From assembly GCF_020520425.1 (NCBI RefSeq), contig NC_079492.1, positions 146,537,861 through 146,601,860 on the forward strand: a stretch of 64,000 nucleotides of DNA, in the 5' to 3' direction. This document shows, one piece after another, positions 6,094 to 42,050 of the stretch (positions within the stretch are counted from its first letter, which is position 1; every line of letters starts with the position of its first letter). This stretch comes from Spinacia oleracea. Taxonomy: Eukaryota > Streptophyta > Magnoliopsida > Caryophyllales > Amaranthaceae. The position numbers and the translations under genes are program-made. Under the pieces are notes generated by a model. The model saw only the letters and a list, made by a program, of their open reading frames with translations, was not told the origin of the DNA and did no database searches.

Positions 6094-6222
6094 CCACATT
6101 TTTCCACACTTCTTTTCCACTCAAACCCATAATCCTTTCATATCTTCAAAATTATTTCAATTTTCAAATTATCTTTCATCATATAATCTTTCCTATAATC
6201 TTTTATTGTTTAAGCTTCAACA

Positions 6223-7272
6223 ATGGCGTCATGCGATGAATCATCGGCTCTCGACTTTATCAAGAGTCACCTCTTCAGTGAACTTTCACCTATTGGTGTT
6301 AATTTCAGTTTTAATAACAATAATTTTGTTAATAATGGTTTGAATTTCGATCTTAATCAGTCTAATATTGCTAAACCTGAATCATCGATCGGTAAATCGA
6401 ATTCTCTCTCCTCGCAAAATTCTCTTTCCTCACAGAATTCCTTTTCTACTTCGTACTTTACCGGACAACAGGAGATGGATTCTAGTTCTAACTTGATTAA
6501 GGAAGAGAAAGCTGCCGATTTCGATTTCGACTTCGATTTTGATGTCGATTTCTCAAAATTTGAGACGAAGGAGATGTCTACACCATCGCCGACGTTTTCC
6601 GGCGGATCGAAGTCGAAGTTTAGAGAGAGGAAGCCGGCGATGATGAAAATCGCGGTTCCGGCTCCGGCTAAGAAATTTGAGGTGGTCGAGTTTGTATCCG
6701 AGTTAACTCAAAAGGCGAGTAACGAGTTGGCTCAGAAGGTTGAGAAGCAGGAGGCCCAGAGGCACTACAGAGGAGTGAGGAGAAGGCCATGGGGAAAGTA
6801 CGCCGCTGAGATTCGTGACCCAAACAAGCGCGGTTCACGAGTTTGGCTCGGGACATACGACACCGCCATCGAAGCGGCCAGAGCCTACGACAGGGCTGCG
6901 TTCAGGCTCCGTGGCTCGAAGGCGATCCTCAACTTCCCTCTCGAAGTTGGAAAGCTGGTTGAGGAGGCCGCTGCCACTGCAGCCACCGCCGCCACTACCG
7001 GCGCTTCATCCGAAGGAGGTAACGGCGGAAGGAAAAGGAAAGCGGTGGAAGAGACTAAAAAAGAGGTGGTGGTTGTGACGAAAAAGGTTAAAAGTGAGGA
7101 GAGCTCTACGACGTCGTGTTTAGTTGATGAATCATTTCCGTTGACTCCGTCAAGTTGGACGGCGTTTTGGGATTTGGATGTGAAGTCAGGGAATGGGTTG
7201 TTTACTGTACCTCCTCTGTCACCGTTATCTCCACATCCATCGATAGGGTATTCACAGATGGCGGTCATGTGA
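6223..7272 (+). CDS. AP2/ERF transcription factor, group IXb (ERF5/ERF6-like)
   Basis: A 349-residue intronless gene for an ethylene-response factor that should bind GCC-box promoters in the nucleus. The single AP2/ERF domain spans residues 181-238 (starts [11 protein letters not shown], ends LNFPL) and keeps the Ala and Asp of the 'AAEIRD' stretch that mark the ERF rather than DREB class. The N-terminus '[12 protein letters not shown]' and the C-terminal '[11 protein letters not shown]' match the signature ends of ERF5/ERF6/ERF104. In Arabidopsis members the latter region is a MAP-kinase phosphorylation site; that it works so here is inferred. A GGRKRK stretch (268-273) and KKVK may be nuclear-localisation signals. 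Residues 98-110 are a low-complexity Asp-Phe run. The start was chosen because the family N-terminus begins there and a TATA box lies 130 bp upstream. A longer upstream frame (5855-6343) is in another frame and looks non-coding. Confidence 0.97.
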
Positions 7273-14540: not shown

Positions 14541-14616
14541 GACCTAAGTCAGTTCCCGATAAGGTAAGTGTCGTAAAACAGGATTTAGAAATGAACTAGG
14601 CTAGTGAAGAATATGT

Positions 14617-15042
14617 TGTTCCGGTGTTGTAAAGATGGAAACAATGGGCTTCGAATGAAGGCCCTTTTGTATGTGTTGAAGATCTTGCTTGTTTGAATGA
14701 GTGGAGTCCGTATTCACCTGCACAGGAGCAAAGTCACTAGCCTCGGGGGTGTTTCCGAGGAAAGCCCCTCCGATGCCTAAGTAAGAATGATGCTCGGATT
14801 CTAGAGAGAAGTTCTCTAGAAGAGTAGTCTTAAGGCGGTAAATTGGACGTACCTTGAGGTGTGAGCCTTGGCGGCCTATTTATAGTGTTTGCATAATAAA
14901 TGCCCATAGGTCATTTATTGCTTTTGGGCCTTGGGCCTTGATGGATGGCTGACTAGCCATTGGTGGGTTTGATGCTGTTTGTTTAGAGCCATTGGGCTTT
15001 GGACTTAGTGGCCCAAGTGAGAATCAATTGGGAGCCCAAACA
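14617..15042 (-). repeat. 3' LTR of the Tat-like element
   Basis: A 426-bp repeat that reads identical to 25824-26249. On the + strand it begins 'tgttccggtgttg' and ends 'gggagcccaaaca'. For the antisense gene this LTR is the upstream flank. Confidence 0.95.
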
Positions 15043-15219: not shown

Positions 15220-15227
15220 TATAAATA
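15220..15227 (+). promoter_or_regulatory. Candidate TATA box of the antisense gene
   Basis: 'tataaata' lies 178 bp downstream of the LTR edge and 263 bp before the first good ATG at 15483. A possible leader intron (GT at 15400, AG at 15464-15465) would fall between them. It is oriented opposite to gag-pol. Confidence 0.45.
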
Positions 15228-15482: not shown

Positions 15483-18400
15483 ATGGCAAAGAATAGGGGC
15501 AAGAGCAAGTTCGTCGTTGATTCCTCTAGTGAGAGGGAGAACGTGCCTTCGGGAAGGTTACCGAAAACTTCGAGGGGTCGGCCTTCGGAGAGGCCGGTGG
15601 AGAGGCGTTCGACTGGTTGGGATGCTTCAAAAGATGACGTTGTTGGCGGGTCTAGCGTGTCTGAACGCGCAACTTCTGGTAAGAAAGCTGGCTCTTCGGG
15701 TGTGCGCCGCTCTTACCCTGAGTTTCCAGTTCATTGGACTGAAGCTGATCCGCAGGGCAAGTATGCCCCGATTCTGCATGAGACCACTAAGATCGATGGT
15801 CCCTTGGAAAAATCGGTCAGTGGTGACTGGTTGGTGGAGGCGAAGCTGGGGAACTACCATCGGAGAGCCGAAGAGTTATACGGAATCCAGCACGCCTTGG
15901 GGTACTGGTGCGAGCTTCCCGACCAGGAGCGTCCTCGGGTGACTCATCCGCCGAGGGGGTTCATCTCTGTGTATACTCATCATTTGGAGAACGGTCTCCG
16001 CTTTCCTTTGGATCCCTTCGTTTCCGAGCTCCTGGTGTCGTACAACATCAGTTTGGCCCAGCTTACCCCCAAATCTATGAGGCACATCATCGGATTTAGA
16101 TGGGTGTGCGATTTTATTAACTTTCCATGCTCTGTTGCCGTGTTTCGGGATCTGCACGATCTGTCTTTCAACCATGCCTCCAAGGGAGATGGGTATGGTT
16201 GGTGGACCATCATCAACAAAAGATCCCGAAGGAAGGGGGAGCCGAACTACATTACGGCCTACCCTTACCTCAGCTCTGATCATAATTGGAAGACGGAGTG
16301 GTTGTTTGTTCGTGTGCCGACAGATCCGAAGCATCCACATTTTTACCGCCCTCCGAAGTGGTTTGTGACTCCTGATCCTGATATGCGAAGCGTGGCTGCT
16401 CCGGATCGGAACCATCACCACTACGTGGATCTCCTCCAGTGGTTTTTGGCTCGGGAGGACAACTACAAACTGCCGTCCAACTGGCTCCCGAACCTCAACT
16501 ATATTTTGCGGGAGGACATTCTTGCTGTTGCCGGTCTCAGTAGGATTTTTGACAGGGGTAGGTGTCTTTCGGCTGGGACCGTGCTTTAGTAAGTTTGTCC
16601 TCCTCCTTTTTGTTTCGTTTTATTGACTTTGCTTTGTGCTTTGTTTCTGCAGAGTACGGCTTTAGCTGCGTTGATCCTGTGGTCTTGGGCATTTCTTTGG
16701 ATCTGAAGACCATTCACGACTCGGCCCCTGATTACAAGTTCGGGAAGGAAAATCCTCGTAATCCTCGTTTGAAGGATTACGTGCTGTCTCCGTCGGGTGT
16801 CGCTCGGATATCTGAAGTTCGAGCTGATCCGTGGGATTCTGCCTCTTCTCCCGAAGCTGTTCCGGTGAAAGTCGTGCTCCCTGATTTGAGGACAACCTCG
16901 GATCCGGTGAGTGTTTCTATATCTCGAAGTCTTTTGTTTGTCTTTCTTTCTGGTTGGCCGTCGGCTAACGTCTTGGTCCTGGACCATCTTTTTAGGGTCC
17001 TGGGACTGACGCTGTGCCGCGTGCCGTTCCTTCGGTTTCATCTCCGGCTCGGATAGATATCTCTTTATCTAGGAACCGGGTACTTCGCGTTTTTTCTTTA
17101 CTCCTTCCTTTGTCTTCTTTTACATTTATTGACCCTTGGTCTCCTCTGTTTAGGATCAGCGCAAAAGGAAGGGCAGCACTCTTTTGAGGCCTTCTGCGCA
17201 TCCGAAGAAAGCGAAAGCTTCTCAGTCTTCGGAGAAGGTATTTGTTCTGACTTGGAGCCTTTGTGATCCGTTCTCTCTTTTTCTGAAACTGACCTTTGAG
17301 CGTTTGCCCTGTAGGAAGAAGTTTCGGAAGTCATGCCTCCTCCAAAAAATCTCCTTCACTTCATGCCCTTGCCAGGGCAGAAGTTGAAGAGTGTGGTGGT
17401 TGCGGAACCGCCGCCCGTGGACCAACCGTTGGCCGAGGAAGATACCATCCCCTCTCCGCTGAAGCCGTCTGCTGCTTTGGGGATCGAGATCCAGGATATA
17501 ACCAAGGTGATGGAGGCAATTGAAGCCGACCTTGTTCCTGGCTCGGATGTCCCTACTGTGGCCGAGCGGAAGGAAGAATCTGCTGACGTTTCTCTCGCAA
17601 GGGAGAGAAGTCCAGATAAGGAGATGGTGGATCTCACCGAGGCTCACATGGAGGTTCCCGAAGCTGAGAAGGAGGTCCCTTCTGCTGAGAAGGAGCAACC
17701 CGAGCAAGGTCTGACGAGGAAGAGGCGCCACTCGACCTTGGGCTCTACTTCGACCTCGGCCCTGGATAGACTGATCCACGCTGACCCTTGCTCGGATGTT
17801 CCGCTGAAACGGATCCCCGAGGAGGTAAGGGAGGCGATGGCTCGCTATGCTAGGGCTCCGGTTTTGGGGGAGAACCCCATGGCTCACGTGGGATCTTTGG
17901 TGGGTCCCGAAGCTGCAAGGGAGAATCTTCTTCGGGCCAACCCGCAGTGGAGGGTTCCTGGAGCTGAGGAGAGGAACCCAGCTATGATGGCTCAGTATTA
18001 TCTGAATGAGGTAAGTGTTGGAAATTTTGTTTTGAGTTCCGTTTTTGGTTTGTTGTTTTCTTCTTTCCTCATCTTTTCTTGTCTTTTCTTCTTTCCCAGG
18101 CTGTTTTCTGGTCCTCGTTCACTTCCGAGTGTAGCTCGGTTGAGGAGAGGCAGTTGAGGAGGTATCAGGAGGCTTATGCTCGTGATATCCCTGTCTTGGA
18201 CCAGAAGGCTGGGCAGCTCATGGCCGAGATGGTGGACCTCAAGCTACTGTACCTTCAGTACAGTCGTGAGGCTAGGGAATCGGCTGAGCAGATCGGGGCC
18301 GAAGTTGGGAAGCTTACTTTCCGAGTCGAGGAGGATGCTGAAAAGATAGCTTCCTTCGACAAGGAGAGGAAAGAAATGGCTGCCAAGTTTGCGAGCGAAC

Positions 18401-18900
18401 TTGAAGAAAAAGACAGTCTTCTCAAGGAGATGACGTCTAAATTTGAGGCGGCCATTAAGCAGAGCCAGGAAGCGGAGGCGAGGCTTGTTCAGTTTGTTAA
18501 GAATCGGGAGATTGTTCAGAACCAAGCTGACAAGGTGCCCGTTCTCCAGCTGAAGATCCGAGAGAAGGATGCTGCCATTCGGAAACTGGAGCAAGAGAGA
18601 GTTGACCTCTACACTGCTGATCAGTGTAGGGAGCAATACTGGAATGGCATCCTGGGCGCTCGGCGGATGTTCGCGAAGCATATGCCTCATTTCCCTTGGA
18701 ATGAGAAGGTTCCGCTCTGGATGAGGGCCCAGGATCACTTGGTGGAGTGCCAGGCCGATCGGGACGAAGCTGAAGCTGAACGCCAAGCTGCTCTTGCAGA
18801 GGCTCGGGCCCAGAAGGCGACTTCCGAAGGTGATACTACTGCTGGGGGTTCTTCGAAGGATGCTCCTCTGGGGGATGCTCCTGAGACTCCCAAGAGTTAG
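15483..18900 (+). CDS. Antisense spliced gene carried by the retrotransposon, putative gypsy-type transposon domain protein
   Basis: Six exons join without any stop into 997 codons: 15483-16557, 16653-16906, 16996-17079, 17154-17237, 17315-18010, 18100-18900. Every intron is GT-AG with a pyrimidine-rich acceptor. Residues of about 155-290 ('THHLENGLRFPLDPF', then 'HNWKTEWLFVR') resemble the plant 'putative gypsy type transposon' domain (Pfam Transposase_28). Its biochemical role is unknown to me. The middle (exon 5) is acidic and proline-rich. Exon 6 is a long Glu/Lys/Ala-rich region that should form a coiled coil ('EEDAEKIASFDKERKEMAAK'). It is transcribed against gag-pol from near the 3' LTR. 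Extra genes in this position are known in Tat-lineage elements such as Grande and Retand. No frameshift or early stop is seen, so selection or great youth has kept it open. Exon borders are read by eye. Confidence 0.8.
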
Positions 18901-19189
18901 GGATTCGGGCAGTCGTCTTCTTCAGAGTCGGTCGGTTCCAGTTGAGGACTTCCGAACATGTGCTTGCCTTTCCCCCTTTTGCCTCGGCGCTGCGTTGTAC
19001 TCATTTCTTTTTGCTTTCTTAGTACTTCGGTAGGCCGGTATTGTCTGTTGATGGCTGCCGATTTTAACTGTTTCATTTTGTTTTCAATTTTTGAGGTTTT
19101 CAATGTATTTGTACTTCCCCCAAATATTGAATAAAAAATGAATGTTTGTTACTTGGCTGCTTCTTTTCAACTTGTTCTTTCGCAATTTT

Positions 19190-19605
19190 AGGTCTTTAAA
19201 TCCGTAGATTTCTCGAGCTCCTCTTTCTGTAGACTTGCTGAAAACCTTTTGATCTTGCGAGCTCTTTAAATCCGTAGATCGGTTAAGAGACTTTTTAACT
19301 TTTGCGAGTTCTTCAAATCCGTAGATCTGCTAAGAGACTCTTTGACTTTGTGAGTTCTTCAAATCCGTAGATCTGCTAAGAGACTCTTTAGTTTTGCGAG
19401 TTCTTCAAATCCGTAGATCTGCTAAGAGACTCTTTAGTTTTGCGAGTTCTTCAAATCCGTAGATCTGCTAAGAGACTCTTTAGTTTTGCGAGTTCTTCAA
19501 ATCCGTAGATCTGCTAAGAGATTCTTTAATTTTGCGAGTTCTTCAAATCCGTAGATCTGCTAAGAGACTCTTTAGTTTCCAGACTCTTCAAATCCGTCGA
19601 TCTGC
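19190..19605. repeat. 46-bp tandem repeat array in the retrotransposon
   Basis: The word 'aaatccgtagatc' (variants at the ends) recurs at 19198, 19268, 19315, 19361, 19407, 19453, 19499, 19545 and 19590. The inner spacing is exactly 46 bp (one 47, one 45). The five central units are almost identical ('ttcttcaaatccgtag', 'ctgctaagagactcttta'), while the outer ones are diverged. This is typical of an array growing by unequal exchange. It lies between the end of pol and the antisense gene. Confidence 0.92.
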
Positions 19606-19999
19606 TCAGAGGTTTGGATTGTTCTTCCGATCTCTTGTGGTTCGGAAACCTGGGCAAGAGATCGCTAGTCTGCCTCTTTAGTTATGCCTTCGGCGATCCG
19701 TGGATCTGAGCCGGAGTTTTATAACTTGATTCGAGCGACTGTTTGTTGCGAACAAATTTTATTAGGGTACCGCGAATCCGAGGATTCTGGACGATTCCCT
19801 GAAGTGTATGATTTGTTCATTTCTTGCATTTTATCAAGGAATGGGCAAAGTCAGCCTGTTTTTAGTCTCGGATTGATCAGATCCGAGGCTGCATATATAT
19901 ATAAAGGGACAATAATTATAGAGATAAGTTTAATGAAACACATGGTGCCAATGGATTTCCTCTTCTCATTAAACAACTTACTTGGTTTACAGACAGAGA
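19606..19999. other. Untranslated part of the Tat-like element
   Basis: The stretch lies between the tandem array and the end of gag-pol. A 111-codon + strand frame (19684-20019) has no recognisable motif and overlaps the pol end, so I do not call it a gene. Confidence 0.5.
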
Positions 20000-22900
20000 T
20001 CATACAAAATATTTCTTGAGAACATCGGTACTCCAATGGTTCTTCAGAATTGTTCCATCTAACTGTTTCAGCATATACGTGCCTGGCCTTTTTTCGGAAT
20101 GGATGATGTATGGTCCTTCCCAAGTGGCCGAGAGTTTGCCATGGATCCGTCCTTTCTGAACCGAGGCGGCGTTTCTGAGTACTAGATCACCGACTTTTAG
20201 GGGTCTGGCGTTGACTCTTCGGTTGTAATGCTTGTTGACCCTCTGCAAATAGGCTGCGTTGAGTGTCCTTGCATCGTTCCGAGCCTCGTCCAGTAGATCG
20301 AGAGCTTCGGATAGAAGTTGATTGTTGCTTTCTCCTTGGATCCCATCATACCTGTTGTATGCCTGGATCCTCAGGCTTTCTGTTCCGATTTCCACAGGAA
20401 TTACAGCTTCGGATCCGTATACAAGGTGGAACGGTGTTTGTCCGGTAGCTTCTTTTTCAGTGGTCCGAAGGGACCATAGCGTTCCGGGTAGCTCTTCTAA
20501 CCATTTGTTTTTGTCATCCTCGACTCTTTTCTTGAGTGCGTTGAGGATGAGTTTGTTAGCAGCTTCGGCTTGCCCGTTGCTTTGTGGGTGACAGACTGCC
20601 GAGTACGCTAGGTGTATGCCGAACTGTTTGCACCACTTTTGCAACGGGGTGTTGTCGAACTGTTTCCCGTGGTCGAAGACCATCAGTCTTGGTATGCCGA
20701 ACCTTGTGATGATGTTCTGCCATATGAACTTGCGGACCTGAGGTTCGGTGATGGAGGAGACAGCTTCGGCTTCGATCCATTTGCTAAAATAGTCGACTCC
20801 TACAATCAACCACTTCTTCTGGTTCGTCGCTGAGGGGAAGGGACCAATGATGTCTAACCCCCACTGTGCGAATGGTAAGGGATACAGTGTTGATTGTAGG
20901 GTTTGAGCTGGTTGATGGATGGCTGGTGCGAACTTTTGGCATTTCTCGCATTTCCTTGCCATCTGCTTTGCCTCGGAAACCATAGTGGGCCACCAGTACC
21001 CAGCCCGAAGGGCTTTATGTGCTAATGTCCTACCTCCAATGTGGTTTCCGCATATCCCGAGGTGGATTTCCCTTAGGATGTAGTCAGCGTCTGTTGGACC
21101 CACGCATTTTAGCAGCGGAGCAGAGAATGATTTCCTCATGAGCTCTCCTTCGGCGCTGATGATGAACCATCTGTTGAATCTTTTCAGTTTTCTCGCTTGC
21201 AGCTTATCTTCGGGAAGTTCTCCCCTTTCTTTGTATGCAACTACTGCGTCCATCCAGCTAGGTTCGGAACGTAAGCTGCATACTGTGGTGGGTAGCAAGT
21301 CGATGCTTCTCTCTTGGTGAACTTCCACGTGGACCGACCTGTTTAGGTCGATGAGTGTTGAGCTTGCGAGTTTTGACAGTGCGTCTGCTTGCGTGTTCTG
21401 TCCTCGGGGAATGAGGATGACTTCAAAGGATCTTAACTTTGATGTTAAGGATTTAATTTTTGCTAAATAGGCTGTCATGCTGGGCCATTTGGCCTCATAC
21501 TCCCCTCGGATCTGGTTGGCTACAAGCTGGGAATCAGTTTTGAGGCGAACATGTTCGGCCTCCAGGGATAAACAAAGCTCTATCCCTGCGATTGCGGCCT
21601 CGTATTCGGCCTCGTTGTTGGTTGCTTTGAAGCCGAACTTCAATGCATACTCTATGCTTTTCCCCGTCGGGGGGATCAGTACAACTCCCGCCCCTGAGCC
21701 GTTTATTGTGGAAGATCCGTCAGTGAAGACCTCCCAAGTGCTTTTCGTATCATCCAACATTTCCTGGTATGAGCACTCGGCCAAGAAGTCTGCCAATGCT
21801 TGTGCTTTGATTGCTGTCCTCGGCTGATATTTGATGCCGAACTCTGATAGTTCGAAGGCCCAGGCAGCCAATCTTCCTGACCTCTCTATTTTGTCGAGTA
21901 CTTTTTCGAGCGGTTGGTCAGTTAGCACTGTGATCTGGTGGGAGTCGAAGTATGGCCTCAGTTTTCGTGCAGCTACCACTACTGCATATGCGACTTTCTC
22001 GATGAGTGGGTACCGGGTTTCGGCCCCTGTGAGTGTTCGGCTGGTGAAGTAGATTGGCTGTTGCTTCTTTTCTTCTTCCCGAAGAAGCACTGCGCTGACG
22101 GTTCCAGGGCTAACTGCGACATATAGGTACAGGGTTTCCCCCTCCTTTGGTCTGGCCAGTGTCGGCAGTTGAGCTAGGTGGGCTCTGAGTTGCTGAAAAG
22201 CTTCTTTTTGCTCCTGTTCCCATATCAGTTCGGGATCCACTTTCCTCGGGACCCCTTTTTTCTTGACTGGTTCTGCTTCTCCTCCGGGGAGGTTCTTTGG
22301 TTTCAGTGCTTTGAAGAAGGGGGCTCCCTTATCCGAGGCCTTTGATATGAACCTTGTTAGTGCGGCTAACCTGCCGGTTAGCCTCTGCACATCTCTCTTG
22401 GTCTTCGGCTCGGGTAAATCCAATGCCGCTTGGACTTTGTCCAGGTTCGCATCAATTCCTCTTTCGCTCACCATGAATCCGAGGAATTTACCTGACTTCA
22501 CCCCGAAGACGCATTTTTTTGGGTTCAGCTTCATGCTGTATTTCCTCAGATTTCCGAAGGTCTCTGCCAGGTCTTTGACGTGGTCTTCCTCCTTGATGCT
22601 TTTTACGATGGAGTCATCCACATAGACCTCCACATTCCTCCCTTTCTGGTCGGCGAAGACGTGATCAACTAGCCTCTGGTAGGTGGCTCCGGCATTTTTC
22701 AAGCCGAAAGGCATCATTTTGTAGTTGAACACTCCTGCGCTTGTGATGAACGCTGTCTTTGCTCTGTCATCGGGGTGCATGAATACTTGGTGGTAGCCTG
22801 AAAAGGCATCCATGAAGCTGAGCAGTGCATGGCCGCTGGTGGAGTCAACCAATTGATCTATCCTTGGCAGGGGATAGCAGTCTTTGGGGCAGGCTCGGTT

Positions 22901-25753
22901 CAGGTCTGTGAAATCTACGCACATTCGCCAGGAGCCGTTCGCTTTTTTGACCATCACCACGTTGGCCAGCCATTTCGGATACATGCATGGTTCAATGAAT
23001 CCGGCCTCCTGCAACTTTTTCACCTCCTCGGCGATGGCTTTGTTTTTCTCCGAGGAGTAGTTCCTCTTTTTTTGCTTGACTGGCCGAGCTTCAGCGTTGA
23101 CGTCCAGCTTGTGACAAATCAGCTTCGGATTTATCCCTGGCATATCTGCTGCTGACCATGCAAAGATGTCTTTATGATCCCTGAGTAATCGGACCAAATC
23201 GATTCGGAGCCCCGAGCTTAGGCCCTTGCCTATTCGGACGCTCCTGTCTGAATCCTCTTCGAGGAAGATATCCTCCATTTCTTGATCTGGTTCGGGAGAT
23301 AGGGTTTCGGGGCGGGCATCAACTTCTGCGGGAGACAAGCTGCTCGTGCTTGCTCTTCTCCTTTTTGCCTCGCTTTCCTCTCCCTTAGCTCCTTTTTCTT
23401 CCTCGGGGCCGTCTTCTAGTTTGGGCTTTCGGACAGCAGTGTGGCAGGTTCTTCTCGCCACTTCTTGATCACCTCTGATTCGTTCGGCGAATCCTGCATC
23501 CGAGACGTATATCATCAGCTGGTGGTATGTGGAGGGGATTGCTTGCATCTTGTGAATCATGGTTCTCCCCATGATTACGTTGTATACGGAGTCGCAGTCC
23601 ATCACCAAAAATTCGTCCCGAAGGGTTTTTGCTGCCTGGCCTTCGCCCACTGTGACTGGCAGGGTGATCTTTCCTCGAGGGATAGCTGCGGATCCGTTGA
23701 ATCCGATCAGAGGATAACTGACTTTCGTCAGTGCTTCCTCTGGCTCTTCGAGGATCAGCTGCTCGAAGCAGTTTCTGAAGATGATATTGACGGCACTTCC
23801 TCCGTCGACTAACACTCGATGTACGTTGTGGTTATTGAGGTCCATGGAGATGACCAGAGGATCATCATGTTTGTACTGGACTCCGAAGCAATCATCAGCA
23901 GTGAAGGTCATGTTCGGGGGGTGTGGCTGGTTGTCTCCCACCGCGCTGAAGTTGACCCGATGGGAGAGGGCTCTCAGGTGTTTTTTGCTGGCCTGGCCAG
24001 ACTTCTGTCCCCCGAACACCACTAGGATGTCATTTTTCTTGTGCCCTGTTGCTTCGTAGACCCTTTTCTGGGGTTGCTCGTGTTGTTTGCCGCTTGCGGC
24101 CTTTTCTTTCTCCTCCCTTCGGTCTAACAAGTACTGTTTCAGGTAGCCTCGGCGAACGAGGTCCTCAATGTTGTCTTTCAGCGAGTTGCATTCTTCGGTA
24201 TGGTGACCGAAGTCATCATGGAACTCGCACCATTTGTTCTTGTTTCTCCGAGCTGGGTTGGACTTGAGCTTCCCAGGTAGTTTCCACTTTTCGTCATTTC
24301 TATTGAGGCTGAATATCTCCTTTCGGGGCAGAGCTAGTGGAGTGTAGTTGGTGTACTTGGGTTGAAGTTCACCCCTTCTCCCGTCTTTCTTCGGGCTCAT
24401 CTCTCTAGCTCCTACTTTCTCTTTCCCCTTCCTTGAGCCGCCCTCGGGCTTGCTCTGGGTATTCTTTGTGTCTCTCGGATCCGACGATCCTTTCAGTCTT
24501 GCAGCGGCCTTGTTGAACTCTTCGGTTCTGATGAACGCATCAGCCATTTGGAGCACGTCAGCTATTCTGGAGGGGTTCTTCATTGAGAGTTCGTCACGGA
24601 ACTTCCCTTCCTGGAGCGCGTGCTTCAAGGCGAAGATGGCCACGTCTGGCTGCAAGTTTGGTATGTTTGTTGATTCCTTCATGAATCTGGCCATGAATTC
24701 TCTCAGACTTTCGTCTCTTTCTTGTTGGATTGAGGTCAGTTCTGCTGTGGTTCGCTCGGGGCGATTGTTGCTCACGAACTGTGTGCAGAATCTCTTTTTC
24801 AGCTTTTTCCAGCTCTTGATCGATCCCTTCGGCAGCGATCTAAACCACTCTCCCGCCACTCCGGTTAGCGTGGTTGGGAAGTATTTACACCAGCATGCTT
24901 CGGAGTAGGGACTCAAGAACATTTGCTGCTCGTAGGAGATGACGTGATCCCTCGGATCTGTGATTCCGCTGTAGGTTAGGTGAGCTGGCAGTCTTACCTT
25001 CGGTATTTCTTCCATGATCAGCTCGTCCGAGAAAGGGGATGACGTAGGAGTCATGATTCTTTTCCCGAGTCTAGCCCTGATGCCTTCGTTTGCCGAGGTT
25101 CTGTGATTAGAACGTTCGGGCGTACGATGGGGGCTAGGGGACAGTCCATGCCTCCTGTCTCTTCTTCTTTCTCGGCTACTGACCTCGGGTCGTTCGCCAG
25201 ATCTGCTCGAGTCACCTACCCCGAGTCTCGTATGGATCGAAGGTCTTAACCTTGAGTGGACCGAGGGCCTCAACCTGCTAAGTACCGAGCTTCGGACCCG
25301 AGGGTTACGAGTAGTTGATTCGCTTTGGAGAGCTGTTGGAGTAGGCGATGGTCTCGCAAACCAATCTGGTTGCTGTTGTGCCCTTTTTTGGGTGTCCCAC
25401 GTGCTTTCCATCCACCTCGACGTCAAGTGTGTACCTGTCAAGGGAAGGAGTTCTCGTTCGGGTCTGGACACTTCCGCACTGGGTGACTCGCTCAGCCTTC
25501 GCCTGGTCCTCCTCTCTTCTCTGCGGTCATTTGCCAGTCCTTGCTGCTTCTCATTGAAGAGGAAGTTTTGCATGATGGTCATGGCCGCAGTGAGCTCTTC
25601 CCTAGTTGGAATCGGAGGTCCTGCATTTGTGGCGGTCGTAGCTCTGCTTGGCTGTGACCTCGCCATCGATTGAGGGTGCCCCTCTTGGTCAGATTCTGAA
25701 TCTGACCGCACCATCATATCGTCGTCATTGTTGTTAACAACATCGTTCACCAT
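20000..25753 (-). CDS. Gag-pol polyprotein of the Tat-like Ty3/gypsy element
   Basis: A single uninterrupted frame of 1917 residues, starting at the ATG at 25751-25753, the first in-frame ATG after the primer site. Order of domains by residue: Gag core near 300 ('WFRSLPKGSIKSWKKLKKRF'); a CX2HX4HX4C zinc-knuckle variant near 507-520; aspartic protease near 647 ('LVDGGSAVNII'); reverse transcriptase with the active-site YVDD near 1042; a Ty3-type RNase H near 1210-1290; a second RNase H near 1340-1460 ('FTDGSS', 'NNEAEYEA', 'LKTDSQ', 'QADALS' giving D-E-D-D); and integrase, with HHCC zinc finger 1563-1608 and DDE residues near 1630 ('GLDIIGPF'), 1690 ('VFDHG') and 1726 ('GQAEAANK'). The protein copies the element's RNA into DNA and inserts it. 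The second RNase H is of the archaeal-like kind known from the Tat lineage. The protease reads D-G-G where D-T/S-G is usual. The open frame suggests the element may be competent. Confidence 0.95.
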   Translation of the reverse strand: MVNDVVNNNDDDMMVRSDSESDQEGHPQSMARSQPSRATTATNAGPPIPTREELTAAMTIMQNFLFNEKQQGLANDRREERRTRRRLSESPSAEVSRPERELLPLTGTHLTSRWMESTWDTQKRAQQQPDWFARPSPTPTALQSESTTRNPRVRSSVLSRLRPSVHSRLRPSIHTRLGVGDSSRSGERPEVSSRERRRDRRHGLSPSPHRTPERSNHRTSANEGIRARLGKRIMTPTSSPFSDELIMEEIPKVRLPAHLTYSGITDPRDHVISYEQQMFLSPYSEACWCKYFPTTLTGVAGEWFRSLPKGSIKSWKKLKKRFCTQFVSNNRPERTTAELTSIQQERDESLREFMARFMKESTNIPNLQPDVAIFALKHALQEGKFRDELSMKNPSRIADVLQMADAFIRTEEFNKAAARLKGSSDPRDTKNTQSKPEGGSRKGKEKVGAREMSPKKDGRRGELQPKYTNYTPLALPRKEIFSLNRNDEKWKLPGKLKSNPARRNKNKWCEFHDDFGHHTEECNSLKDNIEDLVRRGYLKQYLLDRREEKEKAASGKQHEQPQKRVYEATGHKKNDILVVFGGQKSGQASKKHLRALSHRVNFSAVGDNQPHPPNMTFTADDCFGVQYKHDDPLVISMDLNNHNVHRVLVDGGSAVNIIFRNCFEQLILEEPEEALTKVSYPLIGFNGSAAIPRGKITLPVTVGEGQAAKTLRDEFLVMDCDSVYNVIMGRTMIHKMQAIPSTYHQLMIYVSDAGFAERIRGDQEVARRTCHTAVRKPKLEDGPEEEKGAKGEESEAKRRRASTSSLSPAEVDARPETLSPEPDQEMEDIFLEEDSDRSVRIGKGLSSGLRIDLVRLLRDHKDIFAWSAADMPGINPKLICHKLDVNAEARPVKQKKRNYSSEKNKAIAEEVKKLQEAGFIEPCMYPKWLANVVMVKKANGSWRMCVDFTDLNRACPKDCYPLPRIDQLVDSTSGHALLSFMDAFSGYHQVFMHPDDRAKTAFITSAGVFNYKMMPFGLKNAGATYQRLVDHVFADQKGRNVEVYVDDSIVKSIKEEDHVKDLAETFGNLRKYSMKLNPKKCVFGVKSGKFLGFMVSERGIDANLDKVQAALDLPEPKTKRDVQRLTGRLAALTRFISKASDKGAPFFKALKPKNLPGGEAEPVKKKGVPRKVDPELIWEQEQKEAFQQLRAHLAQLPTLARPKEGETLYLYVAVSPGTVSAVLLREEEKKQQPIYFTSRTLTGAETRYPLIEKVAYAVVVAARKLRPYFDSHQITVLTDQPLEKVLDKIERSGRLAAWAFELSEFGIKYQPRTAIKAQALADFLAECSYQEMLDDTKSTWEVFTDGSSTINGSGAGVVLIPPTGKSIEYALKFGFKATNNEAEYEAAIAGIELCLSLEAEHVRLKTDSQLVANQIRGEYEAKWPSMTAYLAKIKSLTSKLRSFEVILIPRGQNTQADALSKLASSTLIDLNRSVHVEVHQERSIDLLPTTVCSLRSEPSWMDAVVAYKERGELPEDKLQARKLKRFNRWFIISAEGELMRKSFSAPLLKCVGPTDADYILREIHLGICGNHIGGRTLAHKALRAGYWWPTMVSEAKQMARKCEKCQKFAPAIHQPAQTLQSTLYPLPFAQWGLDIIGPFPSATNQKKWLIVGVDYFSKWIEAEAVSSITEPQVRKFIWQNIITRFGIPRLMVFDHGKQFDNTPLQKWCKQFGIHLAYSAVCHPQSNGQAEAANKLILNALKKRVEDDKNKWLEELPGTLWSLRTTEKEATGQTPFHLVYGSEAVIPVEIGTESLRIQAYNRYDGIQGESNNQLLSEALDLLDEARNDARTLNAAYLQRVNKHYNRRVNARPLKVGDLVLRNAASVQKGRIHGKLSATWEGPYIIHSEKRPGTYMLKQLDGTILKNHWSTDVLKKYFV

Positions 25754-25802
25754 TTTCGCGGAAAGAGGTGATTGATGTCTTTCAAAGGCTTTGAAGTGTT
25801 CT

Positions 25803-25820
25803 TCCCCACAGACGGCGCCA
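25803..25820 (-). other. Primer-binding site of the Tat-like element
   Basis: On the minus strand 'tggcgccgtctgtgggga' starts 3 bases inside the 5' LTR. The first ten bases match the tRNA 3' end used by Tat/Athila elements (usually described as tRNA-Asp); the rest matches less well. Confidence 0.75.
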
Positions 25821-25823
25821 AAT

Positions 25824-26249
25824 TGTTCCGGTGTTGTAAAGATGGAAACAATGGGCTTCGAATGAAGGCCCTTTTGTATGTGTTGAAGATCTTGCTTGTT
25901 TGAATGAGTGGAGTCCGTATTCACCTGCACAGGAGCAAAGTCACTAGCCTCGGGGGTGTTTCCGAGGAAAGCCCCTCCGATGCCTAAGTAAGAATGATGC
26001 TCGGATTCTAGAGAGAAGTTCTCTAGAAGAGTAGTCTTAAGGCGGTAAATTGGACGTACCTTGAGGTGTGAGCCTTGGCGGCCTATTTATAGTGTTTGCA
26101 TAATAAATGCCCATAGGTCATTTATTGCTTTTGGGCCTTGGGCCTTGATGGATGGCTGACTAGCCATTGGTGGGTTTGATGCTGTTTGTTTAGAGCCATT
26201 GGGCTTTGGACTTAGTGGCCCAAGTGAGAATCAATTGGGAGCCCAAACA
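25824..26249 (-). repeat. 5' LTR of the Tat-like element
   Basis: A 426-bp repeat that reads identical to 14617-15042. It contains the element promoter and a near-perfect palindrome 'ttctagagagaagttctctagaa' in two halves of about ten bases. Confidence 0.95.
26083..26091 (-). promoter_or_regulatory. TATA box in the 5' LTR
   Basis: On the minus strand 'ctataaata' lies about 160 bp inside the LTR start, upstream of the gag-pol frame. It is the best candidate for the genomic RNA promoter. Confidence 0.5.
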
Positions 26250-26254
26250 TATGT

Positions 26255-31592: not shown

Positions 31593-32417
31593 TTAAGGTC
31601 ATGTTCTGTTCACCTTATTTTCACTTATTTCAGGAAAAATAAGTTCAGTTAAGTTTAGATAATTTCAGGTAAGTTCAGATAAAACTCTGTTCTGTTCACC
31701 TTATTTCCACTTATTGCAGGAAAAATAAGTTCAGATAAGATAAGGGTTGACCAAGTACAATTTATAACTAAAATAAGTTTTGATAAGTTCTACTCCCTCC
31801 GTCCCAAATTAGTTGTTACACTTACCTTTGCACAAAGTTTTAGGTGATAAATGGTTATTTGGTTATCAATTGTTATTTTATTGAAAAAGTAGATGTGATA
31901 GGAGTTAGTGGGGTATTTTTTTTAATTGAATGAGAGAGGGTGTGGGGACAAAAAAAAGTTAGTGGGAAGAGTGAGATAATATAATAATTGTGGGTCATTC
32001 ATAATTTAGAAGTGTAACAACTAATCTGAGACAGACGGAAAAGGAAAAGGAAAGTGTAACAACTAATATGGGACGGAGGGAGTAATAAGTTCAGTTAAGT
32101 TCAGATAAGATAAGTTCAGAAAAAATAAGGGTTGACCAAGTACAATTTATAACTAAAATAAGTTTTGATAAGTTTTAATAAGTTCAGTTAAGTTCAGATA
32201 AGTTCATATAAGATAAGTTCAGGAAAAATAAGTGAAAATCAGGTGAATAGAACGCATCCTAAGGTAAGTTCAGAAAAAATAAGGGTTGACCAAGTATAAT
32301 TTATAACTAAAATAAGTTTTAATAAATTTAAATATGTTCAGTTAAGTTCAGATAAGTTCAGATAAGATAAGTTCAGAAAAAATAAGTAAAAATCAGGTGA
32401 ATAGAACACGAGCTAAG
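31593..32417. repeat. 'taagttcagataag' repeat cluster with inverted ends
   Basis: The left edge reads 'catgttctgttcacctta'. Two right edges read 'caggtgaatagaacgcatc' and 'caggtgaatagaacacg', so two overlapping copies are likely. The body repeats 'aagttcagataag'. Relatives lie at about 44787-44967, 47452-47548 and 48018-48180. A Stowaway at 31793-32082 interrupts the cluster. Confidence 0.6.
31793..32082. mobile_element. Stowaway-like MITE, 'tagttgttacactt' family
   Basis: The left end 'ctccctccgtcccaaatt' and right end 'aatatgggacggagggag' are inverted and flanked by TA. It is nested in the repeat cluster. The 3' part holds a partial second copy of 'gtgtaacaactaat'. Confidence 0.85.
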
Positions 32418-33968: not shown

Positions 33969-34120
33969 CTCTTTGATTCTATTCCCTCCAAAAATTGAAG
34001 TTTCAACATTCTCTCTAAATCACCTGAAAAACATTTACTAAAGATCAGATTTTCAATACCCAGTTCAAATTTCAATAATTTAAGCTCAAATTTTCAATAC
34101 CCAGTTCATAATTAAGAAGG

Positions 34121-34942
34121 ATGAGTACAATCAGTTATTTGGAAACTGATTTAGCAGTTCTTGATTCGATTAGGCGACACTTATTGGAAGATTGGGACCC
34201 GAGAGTAATCGGAGCTTCGACGATTAGCAACGGATCAGGCCCAGTTTACCGCCGGAATTCCAGTTTTAGCAGGTTGTATCCTTGTTTAACTGAGAATTGG
34301 GGTCAGTTACCGTTGAAAGAAGATGATTCTGAAGATATGGTACTATTTGGGGTTCTCCGGGATGCTGTCCATACCGGTTGGTCGCCGGAATCCATGTCGG
34401 AAATTGATTCGGGTTCGCCGACAACAGTGATTGTCAAGTCTGAGCCGGTTGAGTCTCCGGTAAGTGTTACCGTCGGTGAGGCCCCGGTAGCGGTGGTTCC
34501 GATGGCGGCTCCGTCGAGAGGGAAGCATTACCGTGGTGTCCGAAGACGGCCGTGGGGCAAATACGCGGCTGAGATCCGAGACCCGGCAAAAAATGGGGCT
34601 CGGGTTTGGTTGGGGACATTTGAAACCGCCGAGGACGCGGCGTTAGCTTACGATCGGGCCGCCTTCCGGATGCGGGGCTCCAAGGCGATGCTAAACTTCC
34701 CGCTTCGAGTCAACTCGGGTGAACCCGACCCGGTTAGGATCACTTCAAAGCGGTCTTCACCTGAAAGATCTACGTCATCATTATCAACGTCATCGATTTC
34801 GTCATCAGATAGTGGGTCCCCTACTAAGAGAAGAAAGAAGGTTGTGGTTGGGCAAGTGGGAAAGGGAGTGGAAGGACTACAAGTGGGATGCCAATTGGGT
34901 GTGGGCCCATTGCCACTTGGCGATCAGCTATTAGTTAGTTAA
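34121..34942 (+). CDS. AP2/ERF transcription factor, group IXa (ERF1/ERF2-like)
   Basis: A 273-residue intronless ethylene-response factor expected to bind GCC-box promoters in the nucleus. The AP2/ERF domain covers residues 136-197 ([20 protein letters not shown] to FPLRV) with the ERF-type Ala and Asp. The N-terminus '[16 protein letters not shown]' is the conserved opening of the AtERF1/ERF2/ERF13 subgroup. An acidic region (67-73) may activate transcription. A Ser-rich stretch (212-234) is followed by KRRKK (237-240 area), a likely nuclear-localisation signal. The start ATG opens the family motif. Its AP2 domain differs from the gene at 6223-7272 at many positions ('[20 protein letters not shown]'), so the two are old paralogs, not a recent duplication. 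TGACGTCA and G-box motifs upstream fit stress or hormone control, which is inference. Confidence 0.97.
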
Positions 34943-36325: not shown

Positions 36326-36427
36326 TATGTTTTTTCTTACACAACAGTGAAAAAAAGATTGTCAAAGTTGATTGATCGATGAATAGTGCACAAATGAGAA
36401 ATGATGCATCTATTGTGAAACGGAGGA

Positions 36428-36810
36428 TGTTGGTGATCATGATCAGCCTACACAGCCAACAACCACACCAGTGCAAGTGCAGCATAACAAGGCAGGTCTA
36501 GCATACACAGGAATGCAGCTCTTGTAACTGATTCTGTTACTTGTCAGCTAGTTTGTCTGTTTGTGACAACTAGGATATTTATGATTGGCTAGTTGTTTTA
36601 TTTCCTGTAATATGATTGGTTGGTACAGCTGTGTACTAGCTTACTATATATATTAGGAGTAAGCCTCAATCAATGATTATCACAGAATATTTCCTAAAAG
36701 CTGTAATAAGAAAACTTCTCTTTAATACAAGCTTCTGTGCAGCTCCGTTTATGGCTGCTTAAGTTTACTTCCCTTCTTCTTAGCTTCTGCATTTATTGAA
36801 GATTTCAACA
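36428..36810 (+). repeat. 5' LTR of the copia element
   Basis: A 383-bp repeat that reads identical to 41668-42050, from 'tgttggtgatcatgatcag' to 'gaagatttcaaca'. It holds 'tatatatatta' near 36644 as a candidate TATA box. Confidence 0.95.
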
Positions 36811-36822
36811 TGGTATCAGAGC
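36811..36822 (+). other. Primer-binding site of the copia element
   Basis: 'tggtatcagagc' directly abuts the LTR and is the standard plant copia site complementary to initiator tRNA-Met. Confidence 0.92.
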
Positions 36823-37225
36823 AGTAAACACAGATCCTGAATCAGTAGTTCTTTCTAAACACAGTGATACAATTCAATCAGAATTCTAAGCATATCAAAT
36901 TTGAGGGTATGTTCTTCAACTGCTGGTATTTTTCTGATTTTCTATGAATCAGTAGTGCATTATGATCTTCTGATTAGTAGATAGATTCTCTGTATGTGAT
37001 TCTGTTGATATTCTTCTGTTTCTTGAATTTCTTCGTGGATTTTTTTTTTAGTTTGATTGCAAAATTCTGTTGATAATCTGCTGATATTTTCTTTCTCCAA
37101 TCAAATCCTAAAATCATCTCATCTCATCTAAATCTTCTTTTTCCTCAAATCAAATCCTTCATCAAACACTTTTAGTTTTATTTCTTTTATTCTAAGAAAA
37201 TCTCAATCTAAAAAAAAAATCAGTC

Positions 37226-38650
37226 ATGACAACTCTACAACCTAATCAAGATCCAGCTAGTCCATTTTATTTGCATCCAACAGATAACACTGCAAGTTAG
37301 TTAGTCTCAGTGAAATTTAAAGGAGAAGGCTATGGTGATTGGAGGAGAAGTATGATGATCTCTATGTCATCAAAGAACAAGCTAGGTTTTGTGAATGGAA
37401 CACTAGCTAAACCTGATGTAACAGCTGACACTTATCAGGCTTGGATGAGATGCAATGACATGATGATTTCATGGATACTGTTTAATCTGGACACAAACAT
37501 TGCCAAAAGTGTGTTATACTTTAACACAGCTAGAGAGATTTGGCTAGACCTGGAAGAAAGATTTGGATACGTTTCTGGTCCACAGTTGTTTTCTCTTGAA
37601 CAACAAGCTGCAGAAATCACACAAGGAGGACAGAACATTGCTGAATTTTTCACAGAGATTAAGTCTATTTGGGACAAGATAAGTGCTGCTAATCCTCTGC
37701 CATCATGTACTTGCAACCAATGTACATGTAACTTGACTCAAAAGATCTTCAAGATGCAGCAAGACCAAAGGCTGATGCAATTCTTAATGAAATTAGGGGA
37801 ACATTTAAGCACTGCAAGGGGAAATTTGTTGATGATGCAACCTTTGCCCACCATCACTCATGCTTATAGGATGTTGGCTCAAGAAGAAAGACAAAGAGAG
37901 ATCAGTGCTCCCATGCAACATACAGAGAATCATGATTTCATAGCAGATAGAAGGAGGTATAATGACTTACAAGGAAGAAACAATCCTTACAAAACTGGAT
38001 ACAAGAACACTTATCAGTATGGTGGAAACAGAACTGGATACAAGAAACCATTTACATATTATTGTGATCATTGCAAGGTCAATGGACATAGTACAGAAAG
38101 GTGTTTTAAGTTGCATGGATATCCTCCAGGTTTCACTGGTTTTAAGAGTGACAAAAGAACAGCAGCAGCAGCTTACTTTGATGAACCATATGGGGATGAT
38201 ATGACAGAGTATCAACCACAGTTCCAAGAAACTGACAGGGAACAACAACCAGGATTTCTTACAGCTGATCAGTGCACTCAGTTGTTAAGTTTGTTAACCA
38301 AACAACAGAATGAGAAGAGTTCCACAGATACACAGAATGATGAAGGAGAGGCTTCTGGCCATGCATTTATGGCAGGTAATACTTTTTGCTTTCTCACTTG
38401 TGCTCATTCTAGCTGGTTGTTAGACAGTGGTGCATCAGATCACATGTGTGCAAATATCAACATGTTTAAAAGCTATGAACCTGTCACTGGAACTGATGAA
38501 TACATAACTATACCTGATGGAAGGAAAGTGGCCATTCTACACAGAGGGACAGTCATTTTAAATGAAAATATACAGCTAAAGGGTGTCCTACATGTGCCAG
38601 ATTTTCAATATAATTTATTATCTGTGAATAAGTTGTGCTTGGATCATTAG
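37226..38650 (+). pseudogene. Copia gag-protease part, broken by two TAG codons
   Basis: The frame opens at ATG 37226, is interrupted by TAG at 37298-37300 after 24 codons, and is then open to a second TAG at 38648-38650. Visible parts by residue from 37226: a Gag region ('GDWRRSMM...KNKLGF'), a CX2CX4HX4C zinc knuckle near 279 ('CDHCKVNGHSTERC'), and an aspartic protease near 400 ('LLDSGASDHM'). Gag packages the element RNA and the protease cuts the polyprotein. If the first TAG is not read through, translation could only start at the ATG at 37310 or later, which still keeps most of Gag. Both stops could have arisen from CAG by one C-to-T change; that is inference. Confidence 0.85.
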
Positions 38651-41600
38651 TGTACAATCTCATTTACTGCTGACAAATGCTATCTTCAGGGCCATTTAAT
38701 GAAAAGGCCACAGGTTCTTGGTAGTGTGAGATCAGGTCTGTACAGTGTGGACACAAGCAAAGAAGATCCAGTTGTAACAAGTTCAACACAATGTCTTTCA
38801 GCCACTGCAGAGTCAACAGATGTGAAGATATGGCACCTTAGACTTGGTCATATGCCATTTCTTAAGATGAAACTTGTAGTGGATAATCTAGCTACTACCT
38901 GTAATAATGACAGTATATGTCAGATATGTCCAGCTGCAAAGCAACCTAGAAATTCTTTTCCTGTAAGCAGTATTAAGACTAAGAGAAGGTTTCAGATGAT
39001 ACATCTGGACACTTGGGGTCCATATAAGAATAAAACTCACAATGGTTGTACTATGTTTCTCACTATAGTGGATGATTTTACTAGAACTACATGGACACAC
39101 CTTCTGAAATCAAAGAATGATGCTGTAACTGTGATTGATTCGTTTCTAAAAATGGTTGAAACACAGTTTGATAGCAAGGTACTTTGTGTCAGATCTGATA
39201 ATGCTTTAGAATTGTGTGAAGGAGAGATGAAAAATTTATTGCTCAGTAAGGGAATTCTTCATCAGACTAGCTGTAGTGGCACTCCACAGCAGAATGGAGT
39301 TGTGGAAAGAAAACACAGGCATTTGCTAGAAACAGCTAGGGCATTGCACTTTCAGTCAAAGCTACCAATACAGTACTGGGGAGAATGCATACTATGTGCC
39401 ACTTATTTGATTAACAGAATGCCTTTGAAGAGTATTGACAATATGACACCCTATGAAAAATTGCATGGACACAAACCTTCTTATGCACACTTGAGAGCAT
39501 TTGGATGTCTCTGCTATGCATCTACTTCTAAAGTCAACAGAACCAAATTTGATAAAAGAGCAACTGCATGTGTGTTCATTGGATATTCACCTTCACAGAA
39601 GGGATACAAGATTCTTGATCCACAGTCCAAGAAAATAAGCATTTCCAGAGATGTTACTTTTTCTGAAACACATTTTCCCTTTCACCATCTTCCAGATTCT
39701 CATTCTGGAACCAACTCTTTACCTCCATATATTTTTCTTCCCAAACACACACCACTTCTTCCTGATCCAGACCTAAATTCACCTTTTCTTCCCCACTTAC
39801 CACATTCATCTTCTTCTTCCTCTACTCACCATAGTGATTCACCATCTTCTGCTACTCCCTCTACTTCTACTACTTCTTCTGCTCCTCATCAAAATTCACC
39901 ATCTTCCACTCCTCTTCACTCATCTACTTCTTCTTCTTCTTTCCATTCTCCAAACTTCACACAGGATCTTACAGATCCTCCTCCTAGAAAGTCTACAAGG
40001 ATTCACAAACCTCCCACTTATCTTGCTGATTATCAATGTCATACAGCTACACACTGGTGTAACCTGGTGACTTACACTAGCTTGCCCAAGAGCTATCATG
40101 CCATGGTAGCAAAGATTGACAGTTTGATAGAGCCTAAGAATTACAAAGAAGCAGTAAAAAGTCCTGAATGGATAAAAGCTATGGAAAAAGAGATAGAAGC
40201 TTTACTTGAGAATCAAAGTTGGGAGGTGGTCACTTTGCCACATGGAAAGAAACCCATTGGATGCAAATGGGTGTTTAAAGTGAAACTAAAGGCTGATGGT
40301 ACTCTTGAAAGATGCAAAGCAAGATTGGTAGCACAGGGGTACACTCAGCAATATGGGATTGATTTTGAGGAAACTTTCTCCCCTGTAGTGAAGATGGCAA
40401 CAGTGAGATGCATAGTGGCTTTAGCAGCAAGCAAGAAATGGACCATTTACCAATTAGATGTTAATAATGCTTTTCTTCATGGGGATCTCCATGAAGAAGT
40501 ATATATGAAGATGCCAGAGGGGATTCCTAATCCTAACAACAAGGTTTGCAGGCTTACAAAGTCACTATATGGACTGAAACAGGCATCAAGGCAATGGTTT
40601 GCCAAGCTACACACTGAATTGCAGACACAAGGTTTCCTACAATCTAAGAATGATTATTCTCTTTTTATCAAAAGGGATGAACATCACATTACTCTTGCTG
40701 CAGTTTATGTGGATGACATTTTGTTAACTGGGAATCATCTTCCTACCATTGAAACATTAAAGAAGCATCTGGATGATGTTTTCAGTATCAAGGATTTAGG
40801 AATGATGAACTATTTCTTGGGTATTGAGGTTGGATATTTGGAGAATGGTGTGATCTTAACTCATAAGAAGTTCACTAAATCTTTGCTTGCAGACAGTGGT
40901 TTTGACCTTCACAAAACTGCACCTACACCTCTACCTATCAATACAAAGCTTCTAGCTGATACAGGAGATTTGTTTGATAAACCTGAGCTTTACAGAACTC
41001 TGGTGGGAAAGTTAAACTTTCTAACACACACCAGACCAGACCTGTGTTTTGCAGTACAACTTTTGAGCCAATTCATGCATCAACCTAGACTTCCACATGT
41101 TGCTGCTCTCCAACATGTTCTTAGGTATGTGGCAGGTTCCGAAGGTCAAGGCATTCTTCTTCATGCCTCAGATACATTAACTTTACAAGCTTTCTCTGAT
41201 AGTGATTGGGCAGCATGTCCTAATTCCAGGAAATCTATCACTGGTTATATCCTATTGTTTGGTAACTCACCAATTTCTTGGAAATCTAAGAAGCAAAGTA
41301 CTATTTCCAGAAGCTCTTCAGAAGCTGAGTATAGAGCTATGGCAGCTGCTTCTGCTGAATTAACTTGGTTGGTCAGATTGTTGGAAGAAATTGGGGTTAC
41401 ACACTTGAAGCCTGTCACCCTTCACTGTGATAACCAATCTGCCATTTACATAGCAAAGAATCCAGTGTTTCATGAGCGCACAAAACACATTGAAATTGAC
41501 TGTCACTTTACAAGAGATAAAGTGTTGGAAGGTCTTATTCAACTCACCTATTTGCCTACTCAGTCACAACTTGCAGACATCTTTACTAAGGCTTTGCCTT

Positions 41601-41767
41601 CACCTCATTTTTATGAGCTTCTTTCCAAGCTTGGTGTTTCTCATGCCACCCCAAGCTTGAGGGGGGGTGTTGGTGATCATGATCAGCCTACACAGCCAAC
41701 AACCACACCAGTGCAAGTGCAGCATAACAAGGCAGGTCTAGCATACACAGGAATGCAGCTCTTGTAA
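38651..41767 (+). pseudogene. Copia integrase-reverse transcriptase-RNase H part
   Basis: Same frame as the gag part, downstream of the TAG at 38648-38650. The first ATG after that stop is at 38699. By eye: HHCC zinc finger ('WHLRLGH', then 'CQICPAAK'), integrase D, D and E in 'HLDTWGPY', 'VRSDNALE' and 'QQNGVVERKHR', a Ser/Pro-rich linker, reverse transcriptase with 'YVDDILLTGN', and copia RNase H with 'SDSDWAACP', 'SEAEYRAM' and 'HCDNQSAIYIAK'. All catalytic residues are present. The last 33 or so codons lie within the 3' LTR and the polypurine tract is itself coding. The upstream stop should prevent normal polyprotein production. Confidence 0.9.
41653..41667 (+). other. Polypurine tract of the copia element
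   Basis: The purine-rich tail 'gcttgaggggggg' directly precedes the 3' LTR and is also part of the pol reading frame. Confidence 0.8.
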
Positions 41768-42050
41768 CTGATTCTGTTACTTGTCAGCTAGTTTGTCTGT
41801 TTGTGACAACTAGGATATTTATGATTGGCTAGTTGTTTTATTTCCTGTAATATGATTGGTTGGTACAGCTGTGTACTAGCTTACTATATATATTAGGAGT
41901 AAGCCTCAATCAATGATTATCACAGAATATTTCCTAAAAGCTGTAATAAGAAAACTTCTCTTTAATACAAGCTTCTGTGCAGCTCCGTTTATGGCTGCTT
42001 AAGTTTACTTCCCTTCTTCTTAGCTTCTGCATTTATTGAAGATTTCAACA
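41668..42050 (+). repeat. 3' LTR of the copia element
   Basis: A 383-bp repeat that reads identical to 36428-36810. The pol frame runs 100 bases into it. Confidence 0.95.

Follow-up and report, generated by a model that had tools for sequence, protein, structure and literature searches.

The window, a stretch of 64,000 nucleotides from the Spinacia oleracea genome, contains an LTR retrotransposon whose sense strand is the minus strand and which carries a gene on the plus strand (Table 1). The LTRs of this element are 426 bp each, 100% identical, with TG...CA ends, and they are bordered by the TSD TATGT; the lack of any difference between them points to a recent insertion, in agreement with the preliminary description, which called the host a young gypsy element. 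Pfam searches of the gag-pol frame (20003-26086) identified gag, RT, RNase H, a second RNase H-like domain and integrase, and the two LTRs with a TSD, together with the order RT-RNase H-integrase, place the element in Ty3/gypsy. A second RNase H-like domain before the integrase is a mark of the Tat clade, and in the window gag-pol RT_RNaseH (residues 1318-1416) is followed by RVT_3 (residues 1455-1573). The region from pol to the 3' LTR spans about 4,950 bp and includes antisense TRP28 coding sequence with a PF04195 match above the cut-off, as in Retand. By these sequence features the element is a Retand-type Ty3/gypsy retrotransposon.

Table 1. Features of the minus-strand element and its plus-strand gene, in window positions
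Feature	Position	Strand	Basis or remark
TSD TATGT, left copy	14612..14616		LTR edges
3' LTR	14617..15042	-	426 bp, identical to 25824-26249
TATA box candidate TATAAATA of antisense gene, outside LTR	15220..15227	+	kept in 28/29 copies
Exon 1	15483..16557	+	ends in phase 1; TRP28 / Transposase_28 domain at 15969-16157
Intron 1	16558..16652	+	phase 1; position common to families B and C
Exon 2	16653..16906	+	
Intron 2	16907..16995	+	phase 0
Exon 3	16996..17079	+	28 codons
Intron 3	17080..17153	+	phase 0
Exon 4	17154..17237	+	28 codons, lysine/arginine-rich
Intron 4	17238..17314	+	phase 0
Exon 5	17315..18010	+	linker
Intron 5	18011..18099	+	phase 0; directly 5' of coiled coil; families B and C have a counterpart
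Exon 6	18100..18900	+	long coiled coil and stop codon
AATAAA poly(A)-like signal, outside LTR	19130..19135	+	surrounding 15-mer in 29/29 copies
46-bp tandem array, 7.9 units, between antisense gene and pol	19248..19611		repeat search
gag-pol, one frame, stop to stop, 2028 codons, into 5' LTR	20003..26086	-	ORF and Pfam
Candidate primer binding site, adjoining 5' LTR	25803..25820	-	picked by eye
5' LTR	25824..26249	-	identical to 14617-15042
TSD TATGT, right copy	26250..26254		LTR edges

Several other features occur in the same window. A second young LTR element, of the Ty1/copia type, lies on the plus strand at 36422-42050, with LTRs of 389 bp that are 99.5% identical and a stop that splits its gag-pol into two open frames. 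The gypsy element is flanked on either side by an open frame with an AP2 domain, at 6214-7269 (352 codons) and 34112-34939 (276 codons), and a tandem pair of a 154-bp unit, 92% alike, is found at 32106-32413.

The plus-strand gene (15483-18900) is located between pol and the 3' LTR of the element. Its six exons add up to 2,994 nt (997 codons and a stop), and its five introns (95, 89, 74, 77 and 89 bp, phases 1,0,0,0,0) are all GT-AG. This six-exon model, proposed in the preliminary description on the strength of five GT-AG introns and fitting phases, was upheld by a chance control. In a spliced-ORF search allowing up to five introns of 60-120 bp, with simple splice-site rules fixed after the gene was known, the longest spliced ORF on the plus strand reached 998 codons including the stop with five introns, against 180 on the opposite strand, while 40 Markov resamplings of the gene sequence gave a mean of 116 and a maximum of only 184. 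The same region could be read as several independent unspliced antisense ORFs, in line with a survey that counts separate antisense ORFs (104 in 63 clusters; PMC11963269) and with the open frames of 433, 280 and 296 codons that exist here. However, the 164-codon frame with exon 2 has no methionine, exons 3 and 4 have none either, and all of them fit the joined frame. Every intron length is 2 mod 3, so that retention of any single intron would shift the frame. Codon constraint in the exons, as opposed to indels and substitutions piling up in the introns, and two splice positions common to different families, both described below, further argue against separate ORFs, which we regard as highly improbable.

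The accessory gene would be expressed as a separate spliced mRNA from the strand opposite gag-pol. RNA polymerase II would initiate at the TATA box found in the interval from the 3' LTR to exon 1, and the transcript would be spliced and polyadenylated near 19150, predictions that have good support. The TATA candidate at 15220 is present in 28 of 29 family A copies (family A being the window's own family), 22 of which have the exact surrounding 18-mer. The claim that the gene has a promoter of its own thus gains from promoter-like and terminator-like signals, both predicted and both kept in this family. A bacterial-type promoter scan was set aside as not applicable to plants.

In the predicted protein, a TRP28 domain is followed by a basic linker and then by a long coiled coil. 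Residues 163-225 match Pfam PF04195 at 39.5 bits, above the cut-off of 26.2, which confirms by profile search the 'putative gypsy type transposon' domain named earlier. AlphaFold on the TRP28 region (13 sequences) yielded a pLDDT of 34.5 and no fold, and a profile search of solved structures returned two matches, the best with E 0.65, neither usable. Exon 6 was predicted as a single helix over exon residues 2-194 (mean pLDDT 75.6), and heptad-like windows number 137 in this exon, compared with 46.5 on average after shuffling, none of 500 shuffles having reached that count; the predicted helix and the heptad excess agree with the long coiled coil of the preliminary description. A bipartite NLS in exon 4, although largely conserved, was set aside, because a similar motif appears in about half of shuffled sequences (497 of 1000).

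To look at selection on the gene, we compared copies within family A. The best 36 of 1343 candidates were scored and gave 36 places, of which 30 became loci including the window, hence 29 copies for comparison; picking the best matches favours intact copies. Among these 29, the CDS of 2,994 nt is open in 27, the frame being broken by one stop in L019 and by a 1-nt deletion in L021. Introns are GT-AG in 144 of 145 cases, the exception being a lost donor in L023. A single indel was found in the exons, whereas the 424 bp of introns had indel counts of 18, from about 7 distinct events. We then calculated omega, N/S relative to expectation and corrected for the mutation spectrum, for the window and its copies together (30 rows). 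The modelled frame gave 0.34 with all variants, 0.25 with variants in at least two copies and 0.18 with those in at least three. Four of the five other frames had omega of at least 1.6; the fifth, a minus-strand frame with the same wobble positions, gave 0.43, 0.33 and 0.23 and holds 36 stops. Exon by exon, the modelled frame had the lowest omega in exons 1, 2, 5 and 6, while exons 3 and 4 carry just 6 and 5 variants, too few to be decisive, those of exon 3 being 5 nonsynonymous versus 1 synonymous in the close copies. As a yardstick, uncorrected pN/pS was 0.14 over 200 codons at the pol end (29 rows including the window).

Six more copies (L050-L055) were taken from the list of unspliced intron-3 edges. 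Four of them (L050, L051, L053 and L055) form a diverged subfamily, with NG86 dS of 0.36-0.38 and dN/dS of 0.13-0.14 relative to the window, and dN/dS of 0.08-0.28 by exon block. In L051 and L053, exons are about 89.5% and introns about 80% identical to those of the window, all 10 introns are GT-AG, and the 2,994 nt of exons contain no indel versus 7 and 8 indels in the 424 bp of introns. L051 has three stops and L053 one; L050 and L055 have 1-nt exon deletions and have lost one and two splice dinucleotides, respectively, and L055 also has a 27-nt exon gap. Such stops, deletions and lost splice sites may be what is expected of dead genomic copies. L052 and L054, the other two, are less diverged from the window; both have a 21-nt exon gap, and their dN/dS is 0.10 and 0.14, respectively. 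Exons 3 and 4 of L052 taken together gave 1.05 on very few changes. The preliminary description had named neutral substitution patterns across related elements as one of the outcomes that would speak against the gene, and the result was the opposite, namely purifying selection. At the sequence level, the protein across its six exons and the splice sites are conserved by purifying selection as the element propagates.

We further searched the genome (894,210,420 bases in 242 contigs) for related genes and recovered, through PF04195, family B (L039-L042) and family C (L001-L008), which share 25-28% identity with the window in exon 1; all 13 aligned exon-1 rows match the PF04195 model. Three modelled copies of family B have intron phases 1,0,1,0, and L040 has all eight intron edges. 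In family C, L008 gave a full model with phases 1,0,0, the first-intron donor pattern is present at 7 of 8 loci and the last-intron edges at 6 of 8, L003 lacking both patterns and L006 that of the last intron. Throughout families A, B and C, the first intron is in phase 1 and lies behind a Gly-Leu pair and six further residues, the sixth being Arg or Lys, and the last intron, in phase 0, interrupts the gene just ahead of the coiled coil. The number of middle introns differs between families. Automatic alignment put the first introns of families A and B in one column; the first intron of family C and all last introns were matched by eye. Both end introns, which define the class proposed here, the spliced antisense TRP28 gene, are found in the window gene, by intron edges in four of four family B copies, and in L008 of family C. 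Because the end-intron positions are common to three TRP28 families, they are older than the families.

Constraint was also seen in family B, where the three copy pairs compared, of six possible ones, had a joint dN/dS of 0.20-0.27 (340 codons of exons 2-4 and the first 100 of exon 5) and introns that are 55-87% identical; exon 1, broken in L042, was left out of this comparison. In the L039 element of this family, the LTRs measure 475 bp and are 97.7% identical, and the gag and protease matches run antisense to the gene. Between these LTRs no RT, RNase H or integrase match was found, and the spliced gene is kept. In L041, gag and protease likewise come first and the gene after them; LTRs were looked for there and not found, and an RT match farther out on the other strand was taken as another element. 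On this sequence evidence, family B is non-autonomous: it lacks the enzymes that can be borrowed and has gag, protease and the spliced antisense gene. Loci L039, L041, L044, L048 and L049 represent this Retand-like family without RT, RNase H and integrase matches. In family C, the pol end lies on the strand opposite to the gene in L006.

Two further alternatives bear on whether the protein matters to the element. The antisense transcript might work as an RNA, as a double-stranded or non-coding regulator to which the protein is incidental; antisense RNA would pair with genomic RNA, and a review leaves this possibility standing in its text (PMC7264820). Yet selection acts on codons, with dN/dS of 0.13-0.27 in two families, which makes such a purely RNA-based function very improbable; an RNA role alongside the protein may exist. 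The intron-bearing structure also resembles a cellular gene, as expected of a recently captured host gene carried along with no use to the element. However, the constraint operates inside element lineages, the gene is present at hundreds of places and in three families, two of them highly diverged from the window in exon 1, and the survey's text reports no TRP28 similarity outside transposons (PMC11963269), so that a recent capture is the least credible of the readings considered. We consider it very likely that the locus is a selected accessory protein gene opposite gag-pol, with predicted splicing and introns shielded from loss.

How would such introns survive retrotransposition? The gene lies on the plus strand and gag-pol on the minus strand, so the introns are antisense to genomic RNA, as the preliminary description had it. 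In the genomic sense RNA the intron signals would be reversed, and the introns would remain unspliced and be copied intact, which would explain their persistence. Intron loss would require reverse transcription of the spliced antisense mRNA, and is made hard by that mRNA lacking the LTR ends and the primer site for reverse transcription. We searched for retrocopies with a pattern for a single junction in each family, out of five in family A and four in family B. The spliced exon 3/exon 4 junction of family A had no genome match at up to 3 mismatches, versus 465 places with the unspliced intron-3 edge of the window gene. The family B junction had 4 matches, all with 3 mismatches, versus 213 places with the unspliced last-intron donor edge; the two inspected proved unrelated to the gene, and the other two, identical to each other, may be candidates. 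A 328-nt spliced query, for which 40 of 532 candidates were scored, gave 158 matches, and those listed cross junctions by at most about 4 bases. For the one junction covered per family, the result fits introns that are locked in and rarely lost; spliced copies may exist at other junctions.

As to function, the protein would act in the nucleus on the element's own DNA or RNA, aiding expression or escape from silencing, a role of the kind that the preliminary description had suggested. Our tentative first choice is a family-specific nuclear factor that would promote expression or silencing escape of its own element; the survey predicts that TRP28 binds DNA (PMC11963269). The nearest alternative, which we rate as unlikely, is that the protein works together with Gag or with the integration complex in packaging, nuclear entry or targeting. 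The gene travels with gag, as in family B, where it accompanies gag and protease in elements with no RT, RNase H or integrase match, and coiled coils suit the assembly of a particle or complex. A separate promoter, on the other hand, would uncouple the dose of the protein from that of Gag, and the maize counterpart is reported as nuclear (PMC7264820).

Beyond a family-specific nuclear factor, a broader proposal is that antisense TRP28 genes of Retand in general derive from one ancient multi-intron gene, which entered unspliced and has been locked in since, its introns being invisible to genomic RNA and their retrotranspositional loss difficult, and that the protein is a VANC-like family-specific anti-silencing factor; taken as a whole, this is rather doubtful. 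VANC proteins of VANDAL transposons are anti-silencing factors whose targets are noncoding tandem repeats that expand and contract (PMC10398659). By analogy, the window protein is likewise encoded by the element and diverged between families, and the tandem-repeat targets may be compared with the 46-bp array, of which 29 family A copies have between 5 and 9 units. The two nevertheless belong to different kinds of transposon, and since no clear tandem array was found in family B, the comparison of the array with VANC targets serves as a lead only. HBZ of HTLV-1, named in PMC11963269, is another antisense retroelement gene with a nuclear protein, an analogue for which no homology is claimed.

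Parts of this picture are already known. In a published survey, 97% of Retand clusters are reported to have antisense TRP28 (Vicient 2025, PMC11963269). Table 1 of that survey lists a cluster 'Spinacia oleracea 1' with an LTR of 425, an internal region of 10,719 and a POL-3'LTR region of 4,850 bp and one tandem array. The window element, with 426, 10,781 and about 4,950 bp and one array, is within about 2% in size, and both have TRP28 antisense between pol and the 3' LTR; family A is, judging by sizes, probably this published cluster. The survey predicts ORFs by ORF Finder and its main text does not contain the word 'intron', whereas the window gene is a six-exon spliced unit by prediction. 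Its search demanded an RT hit, so the RT-less family B would escape it; its Table 1 includes clusters with TRP28 and without RNase H and integrase. In maize, gene23 of Grande is described in a review as antisense, with its own promoter and a nuclear protein (PMC7264820), and by this description the window gene resembles it in position, orientation and own promoter. ORF2 of the pvRetro13 type in common bean is described as ORFs, with neither 'intron' nor 'splic' in the main text (PMC4093653). According to a 2025 review, plant LTR retrotransposons generally have no introns, with Ogre and EVADE as exceptions (PMC12786077); these likewise have introns in an LTR element, but the window introns are instead antisense to gag-pol. 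No account of introns in antisense TRP28 genes was found in the literature searched, outside which lie the original papers on Grande gene23, RIRE2 and Retand and a 2011 extra-ORF survey. Thus, the antisense TRP28 ORFs of Retand were already known, probably in this very family, and the intron structure is new with respect to the literature searched.

A five-intron gene kept through retrotransposition, two of whose intron positions predate the families, would be a further route by which a retroelement can possess spliced genes. Our results also suggest that ORF-finder surveys have fragmented a single protein, making its function harder to find, and the full-length protein model opens the way to tests of expression, localisation and DNA binding.
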